The notes under the pieces: generated by a model
Databases searched by the model: none
Seen by the model: the letters and a program-made list of their open reading frames with translations, nothing else
What the model was told of the DNA's origin: nothing
Assembly (NCBI RefSeq): GCF_027497355.1
Contig: NZ_CP114909.1
Span: forward strand, 186,001 to 250,000
Length of the DNA: 64,000 bases
From: Micromonospora sp. WMMA1947
GTDB lineage: Bacteria; Actinomycetota; Actinomycetes; Mycobacteriales; Micromonosporaceae
Direction: 5' to 3'
Part shown: positions 2,496 through 44,953 of the stretch, in pieces
Layout of the letters: each line of letters begins with the position of its first letter
Position numbering within the stretch: position 1 is the first letter of the stretch
Position numbers and translations under genes: made by a program

Positions 2496-2774
2496 GACAG
2501 CAGAGGTTGCCCCCGAACAGCACCCAAGTCAACACTTTCCAACATCGACTGAAGTTCCAACGTTTACCGGCTCTTTGCCCTGCCGCACCGGCAACAGCGA
2601 CGCCTTTTTGCCCTCTTGACAGCGCCGCGCGAGGGGGTAGCTTCAAGCGCCACCGGCTGTTTTTGTTCGGACGTGTGGATTCTCGGTGGATCTGCGGCGG
2701 CCGACACGAACACCGCTCACCGCCAACGATCACGGTCCATGAGCGCAGCGCACCTCTTCCACGCAGGAGGCACC
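2496..2774. promoter_or_regulatory. Divergent promoter region of the galactoside locus
   Basis: This stretch lies between the divergent beta-galactosidase and importer genes. On the plus strand TTGACA at 2616-2621 and TAGCTT at 2638-2643 are spaced by 16 bases and make a good housekeeping-type promoter for the importer operon. On the minus strand TTGACT (2532-2527) could serve the beta-galactosidase gene, but the matching -10 is weak. The heptamer TTCCAAC occurs twice as a direct repeat (about 2537-2543 and 2555-2561), a plausible site for the DeoR regulator encoded nearby. The promoter is inferred from consensus; the operator is a guess. Confidence 0.45.
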
Positions 2775-4106
2775 ATGTCCCGTCCCCGCTCACAAGCCGA
2801 ATACCTCGCCCGGCTCGTACCCCCGTCCGTCGCCGGTCTGAACCGGCGCTCGCTGCTCGCCGGCGCGGCCGGCGCGGGGGCGCTGCTCGGCACCGGACTG
2901 CTCGCCGGCTGCGGCGACTCCGACTCCGGTTCCGGCGGCGACGCCAAGAGCGTCTCGCTCGGCTCGAACCAGTCGGACCCGAAGCCCAAGGACGTCGTCG
3001 CCAAGGTGATGGACGGCTTCAAGACGTCCGCCGGCGTGACCGTCAACATCAACACGGTCGACCACAACACGTTCCAGGAGAACATCAACAACTACCTGCA
3101 GGGCAAGCCGGACGACGTGTTCACCTGGTTCGCCGGCTACCGGATGCGGTTCTTCGCCGCGAAGGGCCTGGCCGGCGACCTCAGCGACGTGTGGGGCAAG
3201 CTCGACGGCTACTCCGACGCGTTCAAGAAGGCGTCCACAGGCGACGACGGCAAGCAGTACTTCGTGCCCGCGTCGTACTACCCGTGGGCCGTCTTCTACC
3301 GCAAGTCGGTGTGGCAGCAGCGCGGCTACGAGGTGCCCAAGACGCTCGACGACCTCAACACGCTCGGCGCGCAGATGAAGAAGGACGGCCTGAACCCGAT
3401 CGCGTTCGCGGACAAGGACGGCTGGCCCGCGATGGGCACGTTCGACATCCTCAACCTGCGGATCAACGGCTACCAGTTCCACGTCGACCTGATGGCCGGC
3501 AAGGAGGCGTGGACCTCCGACAAGGTGAAGAAGGTCTTCGACACCTGGGCCGGGCTGCTCCCCCTGCACCAGCCGGACTCGCTCGGCCGCACCTGGCAGG
3601 AGGCCGCCCAGTCGCTGCAGCAGAAGAAGAGCGGCATGTACCTGCTCGGCCTGTTCGTCGGCCAGCAGTTCAGCGGCGCCGACCTGGAGGACCTGGACTT
3701 CTTCACGTTCCCCGAGGTCGACTCCACCATCGGCGCGAAGGCCCTGGACGCCCCGATCGACGGCTACATGATGGCCCGCAAGCCGAAGTCCAAGGACGCG
3801 GCGGAGAAGCTGCTGACGTACCTCGGCTCGAAGGAGGCGGCGGACATCACGGTCAAGAACGACCCGAGCACGCTCGTCGCCAACAGCGGCGCGGACACCG
3901 GCGCCTACACCGCGCTGCAGAAGAAGGCCGCCGAGCTGGTCGGCTCCGCCACCGAGATCGCCCAGTTCCTCGACCGCGACACCCGGCCGGACTTCGCCTC
4001 CACCGTGATGATCCCGGCGCTGCAGCAGTTCATCAAGGACCCGAAGGACATCAGCGGGCTGCTCACCAGCATCGAGAACCAGAAGAAGTCGATCTTCACC
4101 AGCTGA
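2775..4106 (+). CDS. ABC transporter sugar-binding lipoprotein
   Basis: A 443-residue extracellular solute-binding protein of the family 1 type. The ATG at 2775 follows GCAGGAGG, so longer upstream reading is unlikely to be translated. The N-terminus has a twin arginine (NRRSLL, residues 23-28), a hydrophobic stretch, and a lipobox LLAGC ending at Cys46, pointing to Tat export and lipid anchoring outside the membrane. The mature part shows typical binding-protein segments such as VFTWFAGYRMRFFAAKGL and the C-terminal DFASTVMIPALQQF. It is the first gene of an operon with two permeases and the alpha-galactosidase, so galactosides are the likely ligand. No ATPase gene is present; a shared MsiK-type ATPase encoded elsewhere is common in actinobacteria. 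Confidence 0.92.
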   Translation: MSRPRSQAEYLARLVPPSVAGLNRRSLLAGAAGAGALLGTGLLAGCGDSDSGSGGDAKSVSLGSNQSDPKPKDVVAKVMDGFKTSAGVTVNINTVDHNTFQENINNYLQGKPDDVFTWFAGYRMRFFAAKGLAGDLSDVWGKLDGYSDAFKKASTGDDGKQYFVPASYYPWAVFYRKSVWQQRGYEVPKTLDDLNTLGAQMKKDGLNPIAFADKDGWPAMGTFDILNLRINGYQFHVDLMAGKEAWTSDKVKKVFDTWAGLLPLHQPDSLGRTWQEAAQSLQQKKSGMYLLGLFVGQQFSGADLEDLDFFTFPEVDSTIGAKALDAPIDGYMMARKPKSKDAAEKLLTYLGSKEAADITVKNDPSTLVANSGADTGAYTALQKKAAELVGSATEIAQFLDRDTRPDFASTVMIPALQQFIKDPKDISGLLTSIENQKKSIFTS

Positions 4107-4128
4107 CGGCGGAAGGGGGAAGGACATC

Positions 4129-5085
4129 ATGTCCGACCTGCCCCTGATCCAAGCGGATCGCGCCGTGCCGCCGCCGGCCGCGACCACCACCAAGGGTGGT
4201 CGCGGCCGCCGGCTACGGCTCCTGTCCCGCACCGACCGCGTGGTCATCACGCTCATGGTGCTGGTACCCCTGCTGCTCGTCGCCGGCCTGGTCTGGCTGC
4301 CCGCGGTGGCGACGGTGCTGCTCTCCGGCACGAACTGGGACGGCATCGGCCCGATCTCCGAGATCGAGTGGGTCGGGGTCAAGAACTACGACGACGTGGT
4401 GAACATCTACCCGCCGTTCGTCCCCGCGGTGCAGAACAACCTGCTCTGGCTGGCCGCGCTGTTCGTGGTGGCCACCCCGTTCGGCATGTTCCTCGCCGTG
4501 CTGCTCGACAAGGAGATCCGCGGCAGCCGCTTCTACCAGACCGCGCTCTACCTGCCGGTGGTGCTGTCGCTGGCGCTCATCGGCTTCGTCTGGCAGCTCA
4601 TCTACAGCCGCGACCAGGGGCTGCTCAACGGCGTGTTCGGCGGCGAGACCGACTGGTACGGCGACCCGAACGTCAACATCTGGGCCGTGCTGGTGGCGGC
4701 CGGCTGGCGGCACGTCGGCTACATCATGCTGCTCTACCTGGCCGGCCTGAAGGGCGTCGACCCGTCGTTGCGCGAGGCCGCCGCGGTGGACGGCTCCTCG
4801 GAGACCAGCACGTTCTTCCGGGTCGTCTTCCCGGTGATGCGGCCGATCAACATCATCGTGCTGGTGGTGACGGTGATCGAGTCGCTGCGCGCGTTCGACC
4901 TGGTCTGGGTCATCAACAAGGGCCGCAACGGGCTGGAGCTGATCTCCGCGCTGGTCACGCAGAACGTGGTGGGCGAGGCGAGCCGGATCGGCTTCGGCTC
5001 GGCACTGGCGACGATCATGCTGGCCGTCTCGCTGGTCTTCATCACCATCTACCTCTGGACCGTGATGCGGGAGGACAAGCGATGA
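4129..5085 (+). CDS. ABC sugar transporter permease (MalF/UgpA type)
   Basis: A 318-residue inner membrane permease with about six transmembrane segments; the first is near residues 40-65. The cytoplasmic coupling loop that contacts the ATPase is visible as LREAAAVDGSSETSTFFRVV followed by FPVMRP, the EAA motif of sugar permeases. It starts 22 bases after the binding-protein gene and its TGA overlaps the ATG of the next permease (ATGA at 5082-5085), so the genes are translationally coupled. The substrate is inferred from the neighbouring glycosidases only. Confidence 0.93.
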   Translation: MSDLPLIQADRAVPPPAATTTKGGRGRRLRLLSRTDRVVITLMVLVPLLLVAGLVWLPAVATVLLSGTNWDGIGPISEIEWVGVKNYDDVVNIYPPFVPAVQNNLLWLAALFVVATPFGMFLAVLLDKEIRGSRFYQTALYLPVVLSLALIGFVWQLIYSRDQGLLNGVFGGETDWYGDPNVNIWAVLVAAGWRHVGYIMLLYLAGLKGVDPSLREAAAVDGSSETSTFFRVVFPVMRPINIIVLVVTVIESLRAFDLVWVINKGRNGLELISALVTQNVVGEASRIGFGSALATIMLAVSLVFITIYLWTVMREDKR

Positions 5086-5960
5086 CCGCCGTCTCCGCCG
5101 GCCGCCGCCCCGTGCGGCCCGCCCGGGTCGCGCTGCACCTGTTCCTGGGTACGGTCGCCGTGGGCTGGCTGTTCCCGATCCTGTGGGCGGTGCTCACCTC
5201 GTTCCGCTCCTACGAGTACACCGCCGCCAACGGTTACGTGTCGCTCGGCGGCTGGACGATTGACAACTACGTTACCGCCTGGCGTACCGCCGAGTTCGGC
5301 AAGCACTTCCTCAACTCGGCGTACATCACCGTCCCGGCGGTGCTGCTCACGCTCTTCCTCGCCTCGTGCGTGGCGTTCGTGATCGCCCGGTTCAGCTGGA
5401 AGCTCAACATCGCGCTGCTCGGCCTGTTCACCGCGGCGAACCTGCTGCCGCAGCAGGCGCTGCTCATCCCGCTGTTCCGGATGTTCACCGAGATACCGCT
5501 GCCGGCCTGGATGAGCGACTCGGAACTGCTGTACGACAGCTACTGGGGACTGATCCTGGTCAACGTCGCGTTCCAGTGCGGCTTCTGCGTGTTCGTGCTC
5601 AGCAACTACATGAAGGCGCTGCCGCACGAGCTGTACGAGGCAGCGATGGTCGACGGGGCGAACGTGTGGCGGCAGTACTGGCAGGTGACGCTGCCGCTGT
5701 GCCGCCCGGCGCTGGCCGCCCTCGCCACGCTCGAGGTCACCTGGATCTACAACGAGTTCTTCTGGGCCACGGTGCTCATGCGGACCGGCGACAAGTTCCC
5801 GGTCACCAGTTCGCTGAACAACCTGCGCGGCGAGTTCTTCACCGACAACAACCTGGTCTCGGCCGGTTCCGTGCTGGTCGCGATCCCCACCCTGGTGATC
5901 TTCTTTCTGCTCCAGAAGCAGTTCGTCCGGGGTCTGACGCTGGGAGCCTCCAAGGGATGA
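5082..5960 (+). CDS. ABC sugar transporter permease (MalG/UgpE type)
   Basis: A 292-residue membrane permease pairing with the preceding one. The ATG at 5082 overlaps the stop of the upstream gene, and its own stop overlaps the ATG of the alpha-galactosidase gene (ATGA at 5957-5960). The EAA loop reads LYEAAMVDGANVWRQYW then TLPLCRPAL. The C-terminal sequence KQFVRGLTLGASKG is the usual end of MalG-type permeases (VxGLTxGAVKG). Six transmembrane segments can be traced. Confidence 0.93.
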   Translation: MTAVSAGRRPVRPARVALHLFLGTVAVGWLFPILWAVLTSFRSYEYTAANGYVSLGGWTIDNYVTAWRTAEFGKHFLNSAYITVPAVLLTLFLASCVAFVIARFSWKLNIALLGLFTAANLLPQQALLIPLFRMFTEIPLPAWMSDSELLYDSYWGLILVNVAFQCGFCVFVLSNYMKALPHELYEAAMVDGANVWRQYWQVTLPLCRPALAALATLEVTWIYNEFFWATVLMRTGDKFPVTSSLNNLRGEFFTDNNLVSAGSVLVAIPTLVIFFLLQKQFVRGLTLGASKG

Positions 5961-8167
5961 CGATCGTCCACCTGCGCCGCGCGCGGACCAGCCTGGTGCT
6001 CGACGCACGCGGCCCGGGGCTGCCCCGGGTCGTGCACTGGGGCGCCGACCTCGGCCCGCTGCCCGACGGGGATCTGCCCGCGCTCGTCGACGCCACGGTG
6101 CCGCCGGTGGTGCCGAGCAGCTTCGACGCGCCGACGGTGCTGTCGCTGCTGCCCGAGGCCAGTGCCGGGTGGAGCGGGCGGCCCGGTCTCGCCGGTCACC
6201 GCGACGGCCGGGACTGGTCGACGGCGTTCCGCCTCACCGGCCTCGACGTGCACGACGACCTCGCGGCGCCGTCGCCCCACCTGTTAGGAGGGGACCCTTC
6301 ACATGCACCAGGCGTTAAGAAGGGGCCCTTCCTTACCTCCGGGCGGGTGACGGTGCGGGCGGCGGACCCGGGCGCCGGGCTGAGCCTGACCGTCGAGATC
6401 ACGTTGGACGCGGCGGGTGTGCTGACCCTGCGGCACCGGCTGCGCAACGACGGCGACGGCCGGTACGAGCTACGGGAACTGACGCCCGTACTGCCGGTGC
6501 CGGCGGTCGCCACCGAACTGCTCGACCTGACCGGCCGCTGGTGCCGGGAACGCGCCCCGCAGCGGCACCCGTGGCCGATGGGCGCCTGGGTACGCGAGGG
6601 ACGGCACGGCCGTACCGGCCACGACGCCACGCTGCTGCTGGTCGCGGGCACTGCTGGATTCGGGTTCCGGCACGGCGAGGTGTGGGCGGTGCACACCGCG
6701 TGGAGCGGCGACCACGTCACCGCCGCCGAGCGCCGTCCGACAGGCGAGTCCACGCTCGGCGGCGGTGAGCTGCTCGCACCCGGCGAGATCGTGCTGGGGC
6801 CGGGCGAGGAGTACGCCACTCCCCTGCTCTACGCGGCCCACTCGGCCGACGGGCTGGACGGGCTCAGCGACGCGCTGCACACCCACCTGCGAGCCCGTCC
6901 GTCGCACCCGCGCACGCCCCGGCCGGTGACGCTGAACGTCTGGGAGGCGGTCTACTTCGACCACGACCTGGACCGGCTGCGGACACTGGCCGACCGGGCC
7001 GCCGAGGTCGGGGTGGAACGCTTCGTGCTCGACGACGGCTGGTTCCGCGGCCGGCGGCACGACCAGGCCGGGCTCGGCGACTGGTGGGTCGACGGCGAGG
7101 TCTGGCCGGACGGGTTGCAGCCGCTGATCGACCACGTACGCGGGCACGGCATGCAGTTCGGGCTCTGGGTGGAGCCGGAGATGGTCAACCCCGACTCCGA
7201 CCTGTTCCGCGCCCACCCGGACTGGGTGCTCCAGGCGCCGGGCCGGCTGCCACCACCGTGGCGCCACCAGCAGGTGCTCGACCTGGCCCACCCGGACGCG
7301 TACGCGTACCTGCTCGCACGGCTCGACGCGGTGCTGAGCGGGCACGACGGGCTCGCGTACCTGAAGTGGGACCACAACCGCGACCTCACCGAGGCCGGGC
7401 ACGCCGGACGGCCGGGGGTGCACGCGCAGACCCTCGCGGTCTACCGGCTGCTGGACGAGCTGCGTTCCCGGCACCCGGACGTCGAGATCGAGAGCTGCTC
7501 CTCCGGTGGCGCCCGGGTCGACCTGGAGATCCTGCGCCGTACCGACCGGGTCTGGGCCAGCGACTGCAACGACGCGTTGGAACGGCTGTCCATCCAGCGC
7601 TGGACCGGCCTGCTGCTGCCGCCGGAACTGATCGGCACGCACATCGGGCCGGAACGCTCGCACACCACGCACCGCGTGCACGACCTGAGCTTCCGCGCGG
7701 TGACCGCGCTGTTCGGCCACCACGGGATCGAGTGGGACATCAGCGCGATCGAGCGCGGCGAGCGGGCCGAACTCGCCGCCTGGGTCGCGCTGCACAAGCG
7801 GCTGCGCCCGCTGCTGCACGGCGGCCGGGTGGTCCGGGTCGACCACCCGGACCCGGCCGTGCAGGCCCACGGCGTGGTCGCCCATGACAGCTCCCATGCG
7901 GTGTACGCGGTCAGCCGGCTCGCCACCTCCGCGGCGCAGGTGCCGGGCCCGGTACGGCTGCCCGGGCTGGAACCGCAGCGGCGTTACCGGGTCCGCCCGC
8001 CCGCCGAGGCGCCGGAGCCGGCGATGCTGGAGCTGTCCCCGCCGGGCTGGCTGGCCTGGCCCGGTGACGGCATCACGGTGACCGGTTCGGTGCTGGGGTC
8101 GGTCGGCCTGCAACTGCCCGCTCTCCACCCCGAACAGGCCCTGCTGCTGGAGGTGGTCGCGGCCTGA
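5957..8167 (+). CDS. Alpha-galactosidase, GH36 family, with an embedded repeat element
   Basis: A 736-residue cytoplasmic enzyme that removes terminal alpha-galactose. The GH36 features are WEAVYFDHD, LDDGWFRGRRHDQAGLGDWW, LWVEPEMVNPDSD, the nucleophile Asp472 in YLKWDHNRD, and the acid/base Asp536 in ASDCNDALER. It is the last gene of the importer operon and is translationally coupled to the permease. Residues about 109-127 (6283-6336) are encoded by a 54-base palindromic repeat that also occurs in intergenic DNA at 44844-44897; the frame is kept, so the enzyme carries an extra low-complexity insert in its N-terminal beta-sandwich. Function is probably kept because the catalytic barrel is intact, but this is not proven. 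Confidence 0.93.
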   Translation: MTIVHLRRARTSLVLDARGPGLPRVVHWGADLGPLPDGDLPALVDATVPPVVPSSFDAPTVLSLLPEASAGWSGRPGLAGHRDGRDWSTAFRLTGLDVHDDLAAPSPHLLGGDPSHAPGVKKGPFLTSGRVTVRAADPGAGLSLTVEITLDAAGVLTLRHRLRNDGDGRYELRELTPVLPVPAVATELLDLTGRWCRERAPQRHPWPMGAWVREGRHGRTGHDATLLLVAGTAGFGFRHGEVWAVHTAWSGDHVTAAERRPTGESTLGGGELLAPGEIVLGPGEEYATPLLYAAHSADGLDGLSDALHTHLRARPSHPRTPRPVTLNVWEAVYFDHDLDRLRTLADRAAEVGVERFVLDDGWFRGRRHDQAGLGDWWVDGEVWPDGLQPLIDHVRGHGMQFGLWVEPEMVNPDSDLFRAHPDWVLQAPGRLPPPWRHQQVLDLAHPDAYAYLLARLDAVLSGHDGLAYLKWDHNRDLTEAGHAGRPGVHAQTLAVYRLLDELRSRHPDVEIESCSSGGARVDLEILRRTDRVWASDCNDALERLSIQRWTGLLLPPELIGTHIGPERSHTTHRVHDLSFRAVTALFGHHGIEWDISAIERGERAELAAWVALHKRLRPLLHGGRVVRVDHPDPAVQAHGVVAHDSSHAVYAVSRLATSAAQVPGPVRLPGLEPQRRYRVRPPAEAPEPAMLELSPPGWLAWPGDGITVTGSVLGSVGLQLPALHPEQALLLEVVAA
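6283..6336. repeat. 54-base palindromic repeat inside the alpha-galactosidase gene
   Basis: An imperfect inverted repeat: it begins GTTAGGAGGGGACCC and ends GGGGCCCTTCCTTAC, so the two ends are near-complementary. The same element, same length and about 80 percent identical by eye, lies at 44844-44897 between a P450 gene and an ABC transporter gene. The copy here is read through in frame, adding residues that include GGDPS and KKGPFLTS. Confidence 0.85.
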
Positions 8168-8182
8168 CCCCGCCCACCCCGG

Positions 8183-8239
8183 TGATCAAGGAGTTCGTGT
8201 CACCGCCGGCGTCCGAACGGGACACAAACTCCTTGATCA
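8183..8239. terminator. Long hairpin between convergent genes (GATCAAGGAGTT family)
   Basis: Two 19-base arms (8183-8201 and 8221-8239) pair with a single mismatch around a 19-base loop. The arm reads TGATCAAGGAGTTCGTGTC. It lies between the converging alpha-galactosidase and mannanase genes, where a two-way terminator would be expected. The same arm sequence recurs at 32540-32598, so it is a dispersed repeat and not a unique terminator. Confidence 0.7.
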
Positions 8240-8251
8240 ACCGGTTGGGGG

Positions 8252-9640
8252 TCAGGCGGGGGTGCAGGTCACCGCGGGGGTGGAGTTGGTGCCCTGCCAG
8301 GTGCCGATGAAACCGAAGCTGGTGCTCGCGCCCGCGCCCAGCCGGCCGTTGTAGTCGACGTTGCGGGCGGTGTACGCCGACCCGCTGTTGCTGACGCTCG
8401 CGTTCCACGCCTGGGTGACGGACTGGCCGTTGGCGTACGTCCAGCGGACCGTCCAGCCGGTGATCGCGGCGGCTCCGGCGGTCACCTTGACCTCGCCCTG
8501 GAAGCCGCCCTGCCACGAATTGCCGACGGTGTAGGTGGCGGTGCAGCCACCGGACGGCGGGGGCGTGGTGGGCGGCGGCGGGGTCGGGCTGACGGTCGGG
8601 CTGGTCGTCGGGCTCACGGTGGGGCTGACAGTCGGGCTGGCGGTCGGGGTGGTGCTCGCGTACACCGACGCCTCCCGGGAGGTGGCGGCGATGCCGTTGG
8701 CGCCGTTGAAGATCCGCTGACCCCAGCTGGTGAGCTGGGCCGGGTTGAACGCGGTCGTCATGTCCAGGTACTCCACGCCGCCGCCGTTGCCGCTCCACGA
8801 CCAGCCGAGGTAGCCGATGCCGTTGGCCTGGGCGTACGCCATGATGGCGTCCTCGTCCGGGTTGCCGTCGGAGTGGTTGAAGCCGAACTCGCCGACCACG
8901 ATGGGCAGCCCGGCGGTCCGGAACCGGCCCAGGTAGTCGCTGATCTCGGCGGCGGTGTCGAAGACGCCGTACATGTGGATGGAGAAGACGGTGTTGCGCT
9001 GCGCGTCGGCGGCGAAGACGGTGCCCGCGTTGTCGCGCATGGTGAACGACCAGTCCTGGCCCCAGTTCGGCGCGTCCACCATGATCGTGTGGGTCAGGCC
9101 GGCGGCGCGCAGCCGCTTGATCGCGTTCGAGGTGTCGGTGGTCCAGGCGCTGTAACCCTGGTTGCCGAACGGTTCGTTGCCGATGTTCACGATGACGTAC
9201 TTCTCCTGGCCCTTGAGCACGTCGGCGATGCTCAGCCAGTAGTCGGTGGCCTTCGCCAGCGAGGCGGCGGCGCCCTCCTCGCCGTACCCGGTGGTGTCGT
9301 GCACCTCCAGCACGCAGATCAGCCGGTTGGCCTTGCACAGCGAGATCACGTTCGCCACGTCGGCGGCGCTGTTCTTCGTCCAGCGGTCGCCGCTGGCGAG
9401 CACCACCCGGACGGTGTTCGCGCCGAGTGCCTTGATGTCGGCGAACGAGCTGGTCTGCTGCGGGTACCAGGTGTGCGCGTGGTTGACCCCGCGCATGACG
9501 AACTCGACGCCGCCTGCGTCGTAGAGCCGTCCGTTGGAGACGGAGAACCCGGTGGCGGCGTGGGCCGGCTGCCCGAGGGCGAAGACGGCGGCGAGGGCCG
9601 TCAGCAGGACGGCGCCCGCGACGGAGAGCAGTTTCTTCAT
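8252..9640 (-). CDS. Secreted beta-mannanase, GH5 (subfamily 8 type) with CBM2
   Basis: A 462-residue secreted enzyme. Signal peptide about 1-28 (MKKLLSVAGAVLLTALAA, cleavage after AHA). The catalytic domain (about 29-325) starts ATGFSVSNGRLYDAGG and contains RGVNHAHTWYP, typical of Streptomyces-type GH5_8 mannanases. The acid/base is Glu156 in GNEPFGN and the nucleophile is Glu251 in VVGEFGF. A Ser-Pro-Thr linker with repeated SPTV units (about 330-364) leads to a C-terminal CBM2 (about 365-462) with its end cysteines (GGCTATYT and VTCTPA) and conserved tryptophans, which binds cellulose. It likely attacks mannan in plant cell walls. The gene stands alone, with palindromic operator-like sites upstream. 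Confidence 0.92.
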   Translation of the reverse strand: MKKLLSVAGAVLLTALAAVFALGQPAHAATGFSVSNGRLYDAGGVEFVMRGVNHAHTWYPQQTSSFADIKALGANTVRVVLASGDRWTKNSAADVANVISLCKANRLICVLEVHDTTGYGEEGAAASLAKATDYWLSIADVLKGQEKYVIVNIGNEPFGNQGYSAWTTDTSNAIKRLRAAGLTHTIMVDAPNWGQDWSFTMRDNAGTVFAADAQRNTVFSIHMYGVFDTAAEISDYLGRFRTAGLPIVVGEFGFNHSDGNPDEDAIMAYAQANGIGYLGWSWSGNGGGVEYLDMTTAFNPAQLTSWGQRIFNGANGIAATSREASVYASTTPTASPTVSPTVSPTTSPTVSPTPPPPTTPPPSGGCTATYTVGNSWQGGFQGEVKVTAGAAAITGWTVRWTYANGQSVTQAWNASVSNSGSAYTARNVDYNGRLGAGASTSFGFIGTWQGTNSTPAVTCTPA

Positions 9641-32502: not shown

Positions 32503-32539
32503 AACCCTGTGGAGGGGCGCCCGGGGAGGGCTTCTCCGG

Positions 32540-32598
32540 GTGATCAAGGAGTTTGTGGGCTCAAGGGGGCCGGGAGGTGCCACAAACTCCTTGATCAC
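32540..32598. repeat. Hairpin 4 of array, same family as 8183-8239
   Basis: Perfect 19-base arms GTGATCAAGGAGTTTGTGG (32540-32558) and its complement (32580-32598), loop 21 bases. The arm is nearly the same as that of the hairpin at 8183-8239. Confidence 0.85.
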
Positions 32599-32795
32599 GG
32601 GGTGCAGGGTGAGGTGCTCGGCTGGGCTCGGTGAGGGTTGGGCGGGTGTGGGGTGGGTGTCCGGTTCGGGGGTGGTGGGCGGCACTGTGGTGGCGGAATC
32701 GTGGGCGGGTGCCGGGCGTTGTAACCGGGTGAACGACCGAGCACCGGCTGCCGCCGAGCGAGGCGGTGCCGGCTGTGGGCACAGGCCCAGGGCCG

Positions 32796-35421: not shown

Positions 35422-35574
35422 GTGACCGCCTCCCTGCGCATCGGGCATCACAGTGACACGCCTGGTGGCAGCGGCAGAATAATCCGCACGGTGGACCTGG
35501 GAGACCGATGTAGCCGGTGCCGGCTGTCCGGTGGGAGACGACCGCCTGTCGACCGGCGGCGTGGTGACTCTCGG

Positions 35575-35646
35575 TGGGCGATACTGGGTTTGAACCAGTG
35601 ACCTCTTCCGTGTCAAGGAAGCGCGCTCCCACTGCGCCAATCGCCC
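35575..35646 (-). tRNA. tRNA-Val (GAC)
   Basis: A 72-base cloverleaf with acceptor GGGCGAT/ATCGCCC, anticodon GAC within TTGACAC, T loop GGTTCAAACC and discriminator A. CCA is not encoded. Identical to the copy at 39477-39548. Confidence 0.95.
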
Positions 35647-35657
35647 GGGCAATCGCG

Positions 35658-35730
35658 AGCGGACGACGGGATTCGAACCCGCGACCCTCACCTTGGCAAG
35701 GTGATGCGCTACCAGCTGCGCTACGTCCGC
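35658..35730 (-). tRNA. tRNA-Gly (GCC)
   Basis: A 73-base cloverleaf with acceptor GCGGACG/CGTCCGC, anticodon GCC within TTGCCAA, T loop GGTTCGAATCC and discriminator T. It lies 11 bases upstream of tRNA-Val. Identical to the copy at 39666-39738. Confidence 0.95.
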
Positions 35731-35890
35731 GTGCCGCCGGATTCGCGCCGGCGACGGGGTGAACTCTACCCGATCCCAAGATCGCCGTGCGGCAGACCCC
35801 CGCCGCGCCGGATGGCCGCGTGGTTGCGCTGCTCGCCGCCGGGGTACTGAGGCCGGTGACAGCACAACCATCCCCCCGAAGGAGGCTGTC

Positions 35891-36211: not shown

Positions 36212-36970
36212 CTACGGCCGCTCGCCGGCGGTCACGGCGCCGTCGGTGGCCGCGGGGCCGGTGGCGGCGCGGTCGGTGGCGGCGCGGTCGGTGGCGGCGC
36301 GGTCGGTCGCGGCGCGGTCGGTGGCGGCGCGCAGCCCGTACCAGCCGATCGCGGCCACCAGCGCCACCTGCACCAGGTAGCTCACGACGACCACCGCACG
36401 ACCGGCGTCCTGCGGCACCAGCACGAACGCCACCACGTAGACGAGGGCGGCGATCACCAGCGGGCGGGGCATGGTGCGCCCGATCAGGATCCCGACGAGC
36501 GCCAGGACCATGCCGAGGACGATCGCCAGCTGGCTGCCGAGGATGGCCGGGAGCAGCCCGTCCAACTGGTCGTTGAACGTGTCGAACAACGCGCGTCCTT
36601 CCGGCTCGGGCAGCACGGACGGGTCGGCGGCGTAGGCGAACGGCAGCACCTCCGCGGTGATCGCCAGCGCGAACACCACCGCGCCGAGGCCGGCCAGGAA
36701 GGCGCCCACCAGGTTCAGCACGCCCGCGCGGCCGCGGGCCAGCGCGACGATGAACACCGCCGCGGCGGTCCAGGAGACGGCGTACGCGGGCCCGCCCAGG
36801 TAGAGGTTCATCGGCCAGTACGCGGCCCCCAACTCGCTGACGTCGTCGTAGTGGATCGCGCCGTCGAACGGCGGCTCCCACAACATGAACAGGGTCCGCC
36901 CGGCCAGGGAGACGAGGAGCAGGACGAAGAGGGCGACGAGCGCGGCGCGGCGCAACTGCGGTACGGGCAC
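36212..36970 (-). CDS. Six-span membrane protein with a pentapeptide-repeat tail
   Basis: A 252-residue polytopic membrane protein with about six spans. The N-terminus MPVPQLRRAALVALFVLLLV leads to an outer loop (WEPPFDGAIHYDDVSELG). No family is recognised beyond a likeness to uncharacterised actinobacterial membrane proteins. The tail has the unit ATDRA repeated four times and two variants, produced by a 15-base tandem repeat in the DNA. The tail should be cytoplasmic if the N-terminus is inside. The GTG at 36970 has GGAGG before it. Confidence 0.7.
   Translation of the reverse strand: MPVPQLRRAALVALFVLLLVSLAGRTLFMLWEPPFDGAIHYDDVSELGAAYWPMNLYLGGPAYAVSWTAAAVFIVALARGRAGVLNLVGAFLAGLGAVVFALAITAEVLPFAYAADPSVLPEPEGRALFDTFNDQLDGLLPAILGSQLAIVLGMVLALVGILIGRTMPRPLVIAALVYVVAFVLVPQDAGRAVVVVSYLVQVALVAAIGWYGLRAATDRAATDRAATDRAATDRAATGPAATDGAVTAGERP
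36260..36332. repeat. 15-base tandem repeat (minisatellite) in a coding region
   Basis: The unit GGTGGCGGCGCGGTC occurs at 36260, 36275 and 36290 exactly, at 36305 with one change, and partly at 36320. It encodes the ATDRA repeats of the membrane protein tail. Copy number changes would keep the frame. Confidence 0.9.
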
Positions 36971-39469: not shown

Positions 39470-39476
39470 CCGCTGG

Positions 39477-39548
39477 TGGGCGATACTGGGTTTGAACCAG
39501 TGACCTCTTCCGTGTCAAGGAAGCGCGCTCCCACTGCGCCAATCGCCC
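39477..39548 (-). tRNA. tRNA-Val (GAC), second copy
   Basis: 72 bases, identical in sequence to the tRNA at 35575-35646; anticodon GAC, discriminator A. Confidence 0.95.
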
Positions 39549-39560
39549 TCGTCTACTGCG

Positions 39561-39631
39561 AGGTGGAGACGGGATTTGAACCCGTGTACACGGCTTTGCA
39601 GGCCGTTGCCTCGCCTCTCGGCCACTCCACC
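39561..39631 (-). tRNA. tRNA-Cys (GCA)
   Basis: A 71-base cloverleaf with acceptor GGTGGAG/CTCCACC, anticodon GCA within CTGCAAA, T loop GGTTCAAATCC and discriminator T, which is the identity base for cysteine. It lies 12 bases upstream of tRNA-Val. Confidence 0.95.
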
Positions 39632-39665
39632 GAGGTTGCCCCCGAACTGCGTGGCGGCATCTCCG

Positions 39666-39738
39666 AGCGGACGACGGGATTCGAACCCGCGACCCTCACC
39701 TTGGCAAGGTGATGCGCTACCAGCTGCGCTACGTCCGC
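39666..39738 (-). tRNA. tRNA-Gly (GCC), second copy
   Basis: 73 bases, identical to the tRNA at 35658-35730. First gene of a Gly-Cys-Val cluster, an order also known in mycobacteria. Confidence 0.95.
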
Positions 39739-39999
39739 ACGCCCCCGGTGTTATCCGGTGACGGATGAGAACTTTAGCCGAGCCCGGGAACGGTTGCCAA
39801 ATCGGGTCCCCTTCCGGCGCGTCCGGATGTCGTCGGCGCCTCCTGGCCTCGGCTTCCTAGGAGCCTGGGTGGCTACCCTCGGAGGGCCGGCGGGCAGGGC
39901 CGCGACCTGCGGAATCCGCTCGGCGAGCCGAGTGTCCGGCATCCGACTGTGCTGCGGCCGACCGGCCGCCTCGGTAACTCCCTGTGGTCATACGGATGG

Positions 40000-43668: not shown

Positions 43669-44832
43669 GTGCTGTTCCGGGGCTGGGGGGAGTCCGTCGA
43701 CGGGCAGTGGCCCGACACGGCCACCGTCGTCGACCACGTCGGCGTGCCGCACCTGGTGGTGACCCGGCACGCGCTCGTACGCCAGGTGCTCACCGACCCG
43801 GTGACGTTCCGGCCGGACAACGCGCTCGACGCGGTCACGCCGATCCCGGTGGCCGCGCTGCGGGTCCTCGCCGGGCACCGGTTCCGGCTGCCGCCGACGC
43901 TGGCGAACAACGGCGGGGCGAGCCACCCGGAGATCCGGGGCATCGTCGCCGACGCGCTGCATCCGCATCGGGTGGCCGCGCAGCGCCGGTGGTTGACCGG
44001 GCTGGTCCGGGAGCGGGTGGCCGCACTGGCGGCGGAGCTGGACGCGGGCCGCCCGGTCGACCTGTACGCGGGTCTCGCCGCCGACCTGCCGCTGCTGGTG
44101 CTGGCCCGGCTGGTCGAGCTGCCGGACGCCCCGGTCGGCGCGGTGAAGGACTTCGCCCGGGCCGCGCTGGAGCTGTTCTGGGCGCCGCTGGAGGAGTCCC
44201 GGCAGCTCGCACTGGCCGCCGAGGTGGGCCGGTTCCACACCGTGCTGCGCGAGTTCGCCGCCACCGGGGGCGGGCTCGCCGCGCGGCTGCGCGACGCCGG
44301 GCACTCCCCCGACGTGGTGGTCGGGGCGCTGTTCTTCCTGCTGGTCGCCGGTCAGGAGACCACCTCGCAGTTCCTCACCCTGCTGCTGCACCGGCTGTCC
44401 GGCGAACCGGCGGTACGGGCCGGGCTGCGCGCGGGCACCGTCGCCGTGGACGACGTGGTCGAGGAGGGGCTGCGGCTGGAGCCGCCGATCGTCACGTGGC
44501 GGCGGGTGGCAGCCGTCGACACCACGCTCGGCGAGGTGGCCGTATCGGCGGGCACCAGCGTGGTGGCGTGGCTGGCCCGCGCCGGGCGCGATCCGGCGGT
44601 GGTGGACGCGCCGGGCGAGTTCCGCCCGGGGCAGCCCGGCTCGCGGCGGCACCTGGCGTTCGGCGCCGGGCCGCACCGCTGCGTCGGCGCGCAGCTGGCC
44701 CGGATGGAGGCCGCGGTGGTGGTCGCTGAGGCCACCGCTCTGCTCGACGGCGTGACGGTGGTGCGTCCACCGTGGTGCCCGGACAACCTCACCTTCCGGA
44801 TGCCCGACGCGTTCGTGGTCCGCCGCGCCTGA
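43669..44832 (+). CDS. Cytochrome P450
   Basis: A 387-residue soluble bacterial P450. The I-helix oxygen motif is LLVAGQETTSQFL, the K-helix ExxR is EEGLRLEPP, and the haem loop FGAGPHRCVGAQLARMEA carries the cysteine ligand. The N-terminus is shorter than usual (starts MLFRGWGESVDGQWPD), so about 15-20 residues may be lacking compared with typical CYP enzymes. Redox partners are not encoded nearby. The substrate is unknown. Confidence 0.93.
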   Translation: MLFRGWGESVDGQWPDTATVVDHVGVPHLVVTRHALVRQVLTDPVTFRPDNALDAVTPIPVAALRVLAGHRFRLPPTLANNGGASHPEIRGIVADALHPHRVAAQRRWLTGLVRERVAALAAELDAGRPVDLYAGLAADLPLLVLARLVELPDAPVGAVKDFARAALELFWAPLEESRQLALAAEVGRFHTVLREFAATGGGLAARLRDAGHSPDVVVGALFFLLVAGQETTSQFLTLLLHRLSGEPAVRAGLRAGTVAVDDVVEEGLRLEPPIVTWRRVAAVDTTLGEVAVSAGTSVVAWLARAGRDPAVVDAPGEFRPGQPGSRRHLAFGAGPHRCVGAQLARMEAAVVVAEATALLDGVTVVRPPWCPDNLTFRMPDAFVVRRA

Positions 44833-44843
44833 GCCCTGCGGGT

Positions 44844-44897
44844 GTTAGGAAGGGACCCTTTACCTACCGGAGGCGTTAATAGGGGGCCCTTCCTTAC
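44844..44897. repeat. 54-base palindromic repeat, intergenic copy
   Basis: Same element as at 6283-6336. It begins GTTAGGAAGGGACCC and ends GGGGCCCTTCCTTAC, with ends complementary. It starts 12 bases after the P450 stop codon and could act as its terminator. Confidence 0.85.
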
Positions 44898-44953
44898 GAA
44901 AGTCAGGGTGGGTGGCTGCCGTTCGACGGCGGCGGGGCACCCCCGCCGGCCCA

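Follow-up and report, generated by a model that had tools for sequence, protein, structure and literature searches.

The 54-bp palindromic repeat that is read in frame within a GH36 alpha-galactosidase gene, a ccdA-like gene, and a siroheme synthase gene (cysG) of Micromonospora is kept in its nucleotide sequence and not in the amino acids that it encodes, and this is well supported for all three inserts. Palindromic repeats that are read in frame tend to be discussed as a raw material from which new protein sequence can arise. The three genes, with 38 genomes in the case of ccdA, suggest the reverse, i.e., that the protein tolerates the insert and something acts on the nucleic acid. The explanation favored here, held with about even confidence, is a REP-like mobile palindrome of the Micromonosporaceae that is kept as nucleic acid, probably via a trans-acting recognizer.

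The repeat family in the window and in the genome

The stretch of DNA analyzed (the window, 64 kb) represents positions 186001–250000 of the single-contig, 6.31-Mb genome of Micromonospora (G000). The repeat at 6283–6336 on the forward strand reads GTTAGG...CCTTAC and consists of two imperfect 23-nt palindromes with a spacing of 31 nt; the first unit (6283–6305) is diverged and was placed by this two-unit register, and the second (6314–6336) matches the family pattern exactly. A sequence-only reading of the same DNA had described this 54-base palindromic element together with an intergenic copy of the same length, and both were confirmed. The second copy (44844–44897, forward strand) is positioned 11 bases past the stop codon (TGA, 44830–44832) of a gene that appeared P450-like by eye and is identical to the first at 45 of 54 positions. 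Chance likeness of the two copies was ruled out by shuffling and by a whole-genome control: the pattern of the 23-nt unit found two matches in the window and none in 100 shuffles, and the unit consensus, allowing up to three mismatches, matched the genome 72 times on the forward and 74 times on the reverse strand (146 in all), whereas the reversed control had no match on either strand. The copies nearest to the GH36 element (95% and 94%) were found at 672 kb and 1.92 Mb. One hundred of the 146 unit matches were listed, and the stretches around 97 of these, in 40 regions, were analyzed. The usual form was the 54-nt dimer (65 of the 89 own-genome loci read), with GNAAGG at one end (the second base is T in 77 of 116) and GTTAA at the other. 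The units thus resemble REPs in being imperfect palindromes of 20–40 nt, present in high copy and often dimeric.

The dimer can be folded as one hairpin of ∼19 pairs. RNA folding of the GH36 copy predicted a single long hairpin at −27.7 kcal/mol (z −5.0), and five other sequences, i.e., three copies and the two strands of a consensus, gave z values from −2.9 to −0.9, the fold of the cysG copy being unremarkable (z −0.9). A search of the window with Rfam at gathering thresholds returned nothing but tRNAs. The tRNA-Val and tRNA-Gly genes occur twice, ∼4 kb apart (35573–35740 and 39474–39748), with tRNA-Cys added in the second set, and a GC-rich array of 15-bp repeats is present at 36220–36335. 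The plasmid and phage collections searched held no match to the repeat. Among the open-licence PMC matches listed for Micromonospora repeats, titles and abstract openings contained no description of the family, and a literature search with the sequence string (open-licence PMC) retrieved nothing visibly relevant to it.

No gene for a Y1_Tnp domain (RAYT fold) was found in the genome of this strain. A role of RAYT as mobilizer was not supported across genomes either, as Y1_Tnp was present in 13 of 53 element-rich and 32 of 107 element-poor genomes (p 0.58). The ORFs between seven close pairs of elements showed no obvious transposase by eye; the best of them resembled zinc-ribbon, SEC-C type, and possible DUF559-like proteins and an MFS transporter. 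Target-site duplications were not clear at any of the empty sites examined, where the intergenic DNA was too different. No candidate for a trans-acting factor of the element was found in this analysis.

Nucleotides and amino acids of the coding copies

The gene at 5957–8167 (forward strand, 736 aa) harbors the catalytic Melibiase domain (6.6e-114) together with Glyco_hydro_36N (4.3e-49) and Glyco_hydro_36C (1.5e-9) in Pfam, the domain set of a GH36 alpha-galactosidase, for which solved relatives include 4fnq. Its best named ortholog is that of M. chalcea DSM 43026 (95% identity). The gene closes an ABC sugar-transport set whose transport genes (2616–5960, forward strand) encode a binding protein (2616–4106) and two permeases (4129–5085 and 5082–5960), and its start codon shares bases with the stop codon of the permease gene before it (ATGA); the first permease was assigned by Pfam BPD_transp_1, and the other two roles would follow from ORF and context. 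The element, its GTTA end first, begins on the final base of codon 109 and stays open into codon 127, adding 18 residues, so that the proposed read-through of about 18 residues with no stop held for a gene identified by Pfam. Codon 110 (6284–6286), carried by the element, is the only TTA leucine codon in the gene. In the AlphaFold2 model (36 sequences, mean pLDDT 87), the only segment below 50 is that of residues 104–125 of the N-terminal domain (6266–6331), between the strands 92–102 and 126–137, and most of the inserted stretch falls within this segment.

The clean gap of 18 residues that had been expected in relatives was not observed, as the site proved to be a hypervariable loop. A motif combined with a length cut sorted 69 orthologs, this one included, from the 118 matching genomes into 14 with the element, 36 with another loop, and 19 in which the loop is short; the inserted residues are therefore not shared by all orthologs, and had they been, the likeness to the intergenic copy would have been put down to chance. 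As both the length and the sequence of the loop vary, the event is better described as an insertion into a tolerant loop. On a tree of the gene built after removal of the element columns, the distribution of the element required eight changes, and it follows that alleles were repeatedly exchanged, gained, or lost. The element-free orthologs often share an GGEAVRVSGEERDHDGAG-type loop (residues ∼95–134) with a patchy distribution, which suggests that loop alleles are exchanged between species. Just downstream of the gene, at 8178–8256, lies one copy of a second inverted-repeat family with arms near TGATCAAGGAGTTYGTG and CACAAACTCCTTGATCA; the other copy is at 32536–32614, and the two are 71% alike.

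The GH36 copy is one of six, among the 89 own-genome loci read, that lie inside genes, and all six are in frame; the gene calls used for these and for the intergenic counts came from a codon-usage script of our own and not from annotation. The other five are in the ccdA-like gene (DsbD_TM slightly below its cut-off), a biotin carboxylase gene, an AtuA gene (between its two domains), a methyltransferase gene (ahead of a THUMP-like domain), and cysG (where its two domains join), and the idea that such elements can be a source of protein insertions thus extends to five further genes of the genome. Wherever a model or a domain map was available, the copies were found to sit in loops or linkers, and in the four genes besides GH36 and ccdA, Pfam domains were detected on both sides of or around the element. 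For GH36 and ccdA, the copies are in frame within conserved genes and missing from some orthologs, in the manner of RPE. Intergenic dimers (n = 52) were open in one GTAA-first frame in 49 cases and in one GTTA-first frame in 50, the other four frames being open in three cases in total. At two own-genome loci, L032 (∼395.6 kb, an aminotransferase with a GntR domain) and L008 (∼1793.3 kb, adenylosuccinate synthetase-like), the gene runs into the element and stops inside it, and hence its last residues are encoded by the element.

In GH36, fourfold sites differed in 44 of 706 comparisons (6.2%) inside the element against 21.6% elsewhere in the gene, and amino acids in 20% against 8%; these values are for 12 alleles with the element, leaving out the two most diverged (G009 and G061). 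With all 14 alleles, the corresponding values were 86 of 918 (9.4%) against 23.4%, and 25% against 9%. Along the gene, 4 of 676 background windows were as quiet at fourfold sites (12 alleles) and 22 of 676 as variable in amino acids. The ccdA insert of 37 genomes differed at 454 of 5346 fourfold comparisons (8.5%) inside against ∼28% outside, with 0 of 196 windows as low, and the flanks of 18 codons on either side of the loop differed by 35% (before) and 28% (after). Its amino acids differed by 26% against 13%, and 15 of 196 background windows varied as much. The motif used for ccdA selected 43 inserts, favoring conserved ones, and divergence was computed on 37 of the 38 element-rich inserts. 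In cysG (23 genomes), the fourfold differences were 210 of 1896 (11.1%) inside and 32% outside, with 0 of 357 windows as low, and the amino acid differences were 31% and 10%; this locus was read in 30 of 160 genomes, and the four lacking the motif were all element-poor. The genomes for ccdA and cysG were the best-ranked matches to insert-bearing queries, and the samples hence lean toward insert bearers.

The inserts in ccdA and cysG are read in the opposite orientation to that of GH36. Per-position conservation of the ccdA insert correlated with that of the 52 intergenic dimers (rho 0.66), and at third codon positions the correlation reached 0.83. Pairing in the long hairpin, counted over cells, was 85% in element-rich ccdA inserts, 64% in the five recognizable element-poor inserts, and 91% in the intergenic family. 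As the rest of the ccdA gene diverged from <15% to 30–50%, the divergence of the insert stayed at 7.5–9.0% in every class.

Copies between genes and across genomes

Most copies are intergenic, with the GTAA end against the 3′ end of a gene. Among the GTAA ends facing a 3′ end, 77 of 82 lay within 10 nt of it, and in 24 the element supplied the TAA stop; for the GTTA ends, the corresponding figure was 13 of 35. The contexts of 83 copies were convergent in 38, tandem in 41, and divergent in 4, compared to 10, 31, and 11 among neighboring genes of the window. A location near 3′ ends, with convergent and tandem contexts over divergent ones, is a REP-like feature and has been published for the GTAG/CGTC REPs (PMC3733652, in the part of that paper available).

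Of 24 related genomes, alignment at the intergenic copy of the window was possible for 20, and in 9 of these the empty site was clean. A hairpin with 5 to 7 pairs, CTGAC-GAAA-GTCAG, was present in these nine and in two more genomes lacking the element, and at the clean empty sites it includes the stop codon of the upstream gene. The right half of this hairpin, GAAAGTCAGG (44898–44907, forward strand), directly follows the element, and the hairpin is intact in the element-free relatives. Four genomes (G047, G087, G143, and G102; L362, L363, L365, and L366) carry at this site a G+C-richer variant ending in CCCGCCTTAC. No terminator-like site, i.e., a stem plus a T run, was found around the copy. 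Ten further intergenic sites were compared to the sister genome G150, and an unrelated strong hairpin was found at two (291650 and 376955), with 15 and 16 pairs and 0 of 200 shuffles as long in each case; the other eight counterparts were unremarkable, 25 to 196 of 200 shuffles having stems as long. The view that the element substitutes for ready-made hairpins was not supported, given a strong stem in only 2 of the 10 counterparts. With two such cases, a role in 3′-end hairpins is faintly suggested, and the replacement of existing 3′-end hairpins by the element is a guess.

Among 160 Micromonospora genomes, 53 contained at least 20 units (element-rich), 45 contained 1–19, and 62 none; at the level of the family, matches occurred in 10 of 44 genera. 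The ccdA locus was read in 90 of the 160 genomes, 44 of the 53 element-rich ones among them, and 88 were scored, as G027 and G159 had no loop motif. The ccdA insert had a mean score of 35.5 in the 42 element-rich genomes, and the mean for the 46 element-poor ones was 11.9. At a cut of 22, the insert was present in 37 of the 42 and in 7 of the 46, i.e., missing in 5 element-rich and eroded or missing in 39 element-poor genomes; both thresholds (20 copies and a score of 22) were picked after the data were seen. Worn but recognizable copies were observed in several poor genomes, e.g., G064, G084, and G077. When genomes were paired phylogenetically on supported branches (11 pairs), the association of richness with an intact insert was not significant (median p 0.125), with on average 5.5 pairs in the same direction, 0.5 in the opposite direction, and 5 with no difference.

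G150, which is closely related to G000 by the trees of both ccdA and GH36, has almost no copies of the element. With six copies, it retains a nearly intact ccdA insert in an element-poor genome. The intergenic sites read in G150 showed clean absence and no eroded copies; decay of intergenic copies is hence not supported, and erosion was directly seen only in coding copies. In other genera, ccdA was read in 24 genomes, 6 of them without the loop motif, and the loop was insert-like in G310 and G313. In the genus g8, G238 and G240 have a variant of the element in which the two arms have changed in a matching way, AACGG..CCGTT (GTTAACAACGGACCGTTCCTTAC), and the ccdA insert of G238 carries the same variant.

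Possible causes of the conservation

A mobile, REP-like palindrome held by selection on its nucleic acid could bring these observations together. A trans-acting factor, which may be a mobilizing enzyme or a DNA- or RNA-binding protein, would recognize the element; the copies at gene 3′ ends might act as hairpins at transcript ends, and the recognizer would place all the copies, the coding ones included, under purifying selection. In a lineage that loses the system, the copies would go. A more specific version is put forward tentatively: one trans-acting factor would act on 54-bp hairpins at dozens of gene ends as well as inside genes, the nucleotides, TTA included, would be forced on the host proteins, and with the loss of the factor the network would be gone. 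The existence of both element-rich and element-poor genomes opens the way to searching for a recognizer through the presence and absence of genes, with G150 as the best contrast, and offers a direct test of the role of REP-like elements at gene ends.

It is also possible, if somewhat doubtful, that the copies undergo concerted evolution, overwriting each other by gene conversion or targeted re-insertion and so staying near the consensus with no selection on the individual site. The flat divergence of the ccdA insert and its link with copy number would be expected from such a process, and either concerted evolution or fresh insertion would account for the family centre ACCGGAGG in the GH36 copy of G061 and for the genus's own variant in the ccdA insert of G238. 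However, 11 of the 14 GH36 alleles have the private centre GCACCAGG and not that of the family, and two more have a one- or two-step relative of GCACCAGG. Within each of the genomes G096, G122, and G080, the copy in ccdA also differs from that in cysG (ACC in one and CCC in the other), and 54 bp offers little length for homologous recombination. Besides G238, the loop was read in four genomes of g8; none of them has the ccdA insert, and that of G238 may hence be fresh. Selection via a recognizer was favored over gene conversion because those 11 alleles keep their private centre and because the in-gene copies of one genome can differ in variant.

Retention of the element for its rare TTA codon, which would place the host gene under a UUA-reading tRNA such as bldA in Streptomyces, is considered unlikely. 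TTA is indeed rare, with 3 in 18943 codons of the called genes of the window, the one in the GH36 element among them, and it goes with the element: 13 of 14 GH36 alleles with the element have it against 2 of 55 without, as do 35 of 38 element-rich ccdA inserts and 22 of 23 cysG inserts. Yet the fourfold sites, which exclude TTA, are conserved as well, and TTA comes with the reading frame, being present, among the intergenic dimers, in all 49 open readings of the main GTAA-first frame and, for the main GTTA-first frame, in 47 of 50. The bldA-dependent TTA genes of Streptomyces, in the part of PMC4255298 available, are similar in that TTA is very rare in a GC-rich actinomycete gene; they differ in that the TTA described here was imported by an inserted repeat, and a bldA-like role outside Streptomycineae is doubted in the same source.

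That the low divergence reflects merely a recent recombinational spread of insert-bearing alleles is very improbable. The element is patchy on the GH36 tree, with its eight changes, and four of the 676 GH36 windows were as quiet, which such a spread could explain; the ccdA flanks, at 35% and 28%, are well diverged, and the insert value remains flat as the gene diverges. The notion that the 18-residue peptide itself became useful and was conserved can be set aside almost entirely: motifs such as LLGGAPLPAPGVNKGPFL and ARKGPLLTPPVEEGPPVN recur across many species, but amino acid change is above background in GH36, ccdA, and cysG while fourfold sites are quiet, and the inserted part of GH36 falls in the region of pLDDT <50.

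Rickettsia palindromic elements (RPE) are palindromic repeats that are read in frame in many genes. The repeat described here has another sequence and another host group, that of a free-living actinomycete with GC-rich codons. RPE are named in the available part of PMC3733652. In the portion of PMC5896051 available, the Coxiella MITEs are, like the present repeat, non-coding mobile sequences linked to protein evolution. For the present repeat, the limited search of the ORFs between the seven close pairs found no insertion sequence with matching ends, and its unit is shorter than the 70–300 bp given for MITEs in the accessible text of PMC3733652. The GTAG/CGTC REPs, as far as the same text covers them, are similar in form, being short palindromes that are often dimeric, high in copy, and near 3′ ends. 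The feet are GTAA and GTTA here as opposed to GTAG or CGTC, and the RAYT gene associated with those REPs has no counterpart in this genome. Conservation of coding copies at the nucleotide level, as observed here, is not described for the GTAG/CGTC REPs in the available part of PMC3733652. The same part reports that some copies of those REPs lie inside ORFs, where dimers or groups add 20–30 residues, and that their ends supply stop codons, TAG in that case and TAA in the present one.
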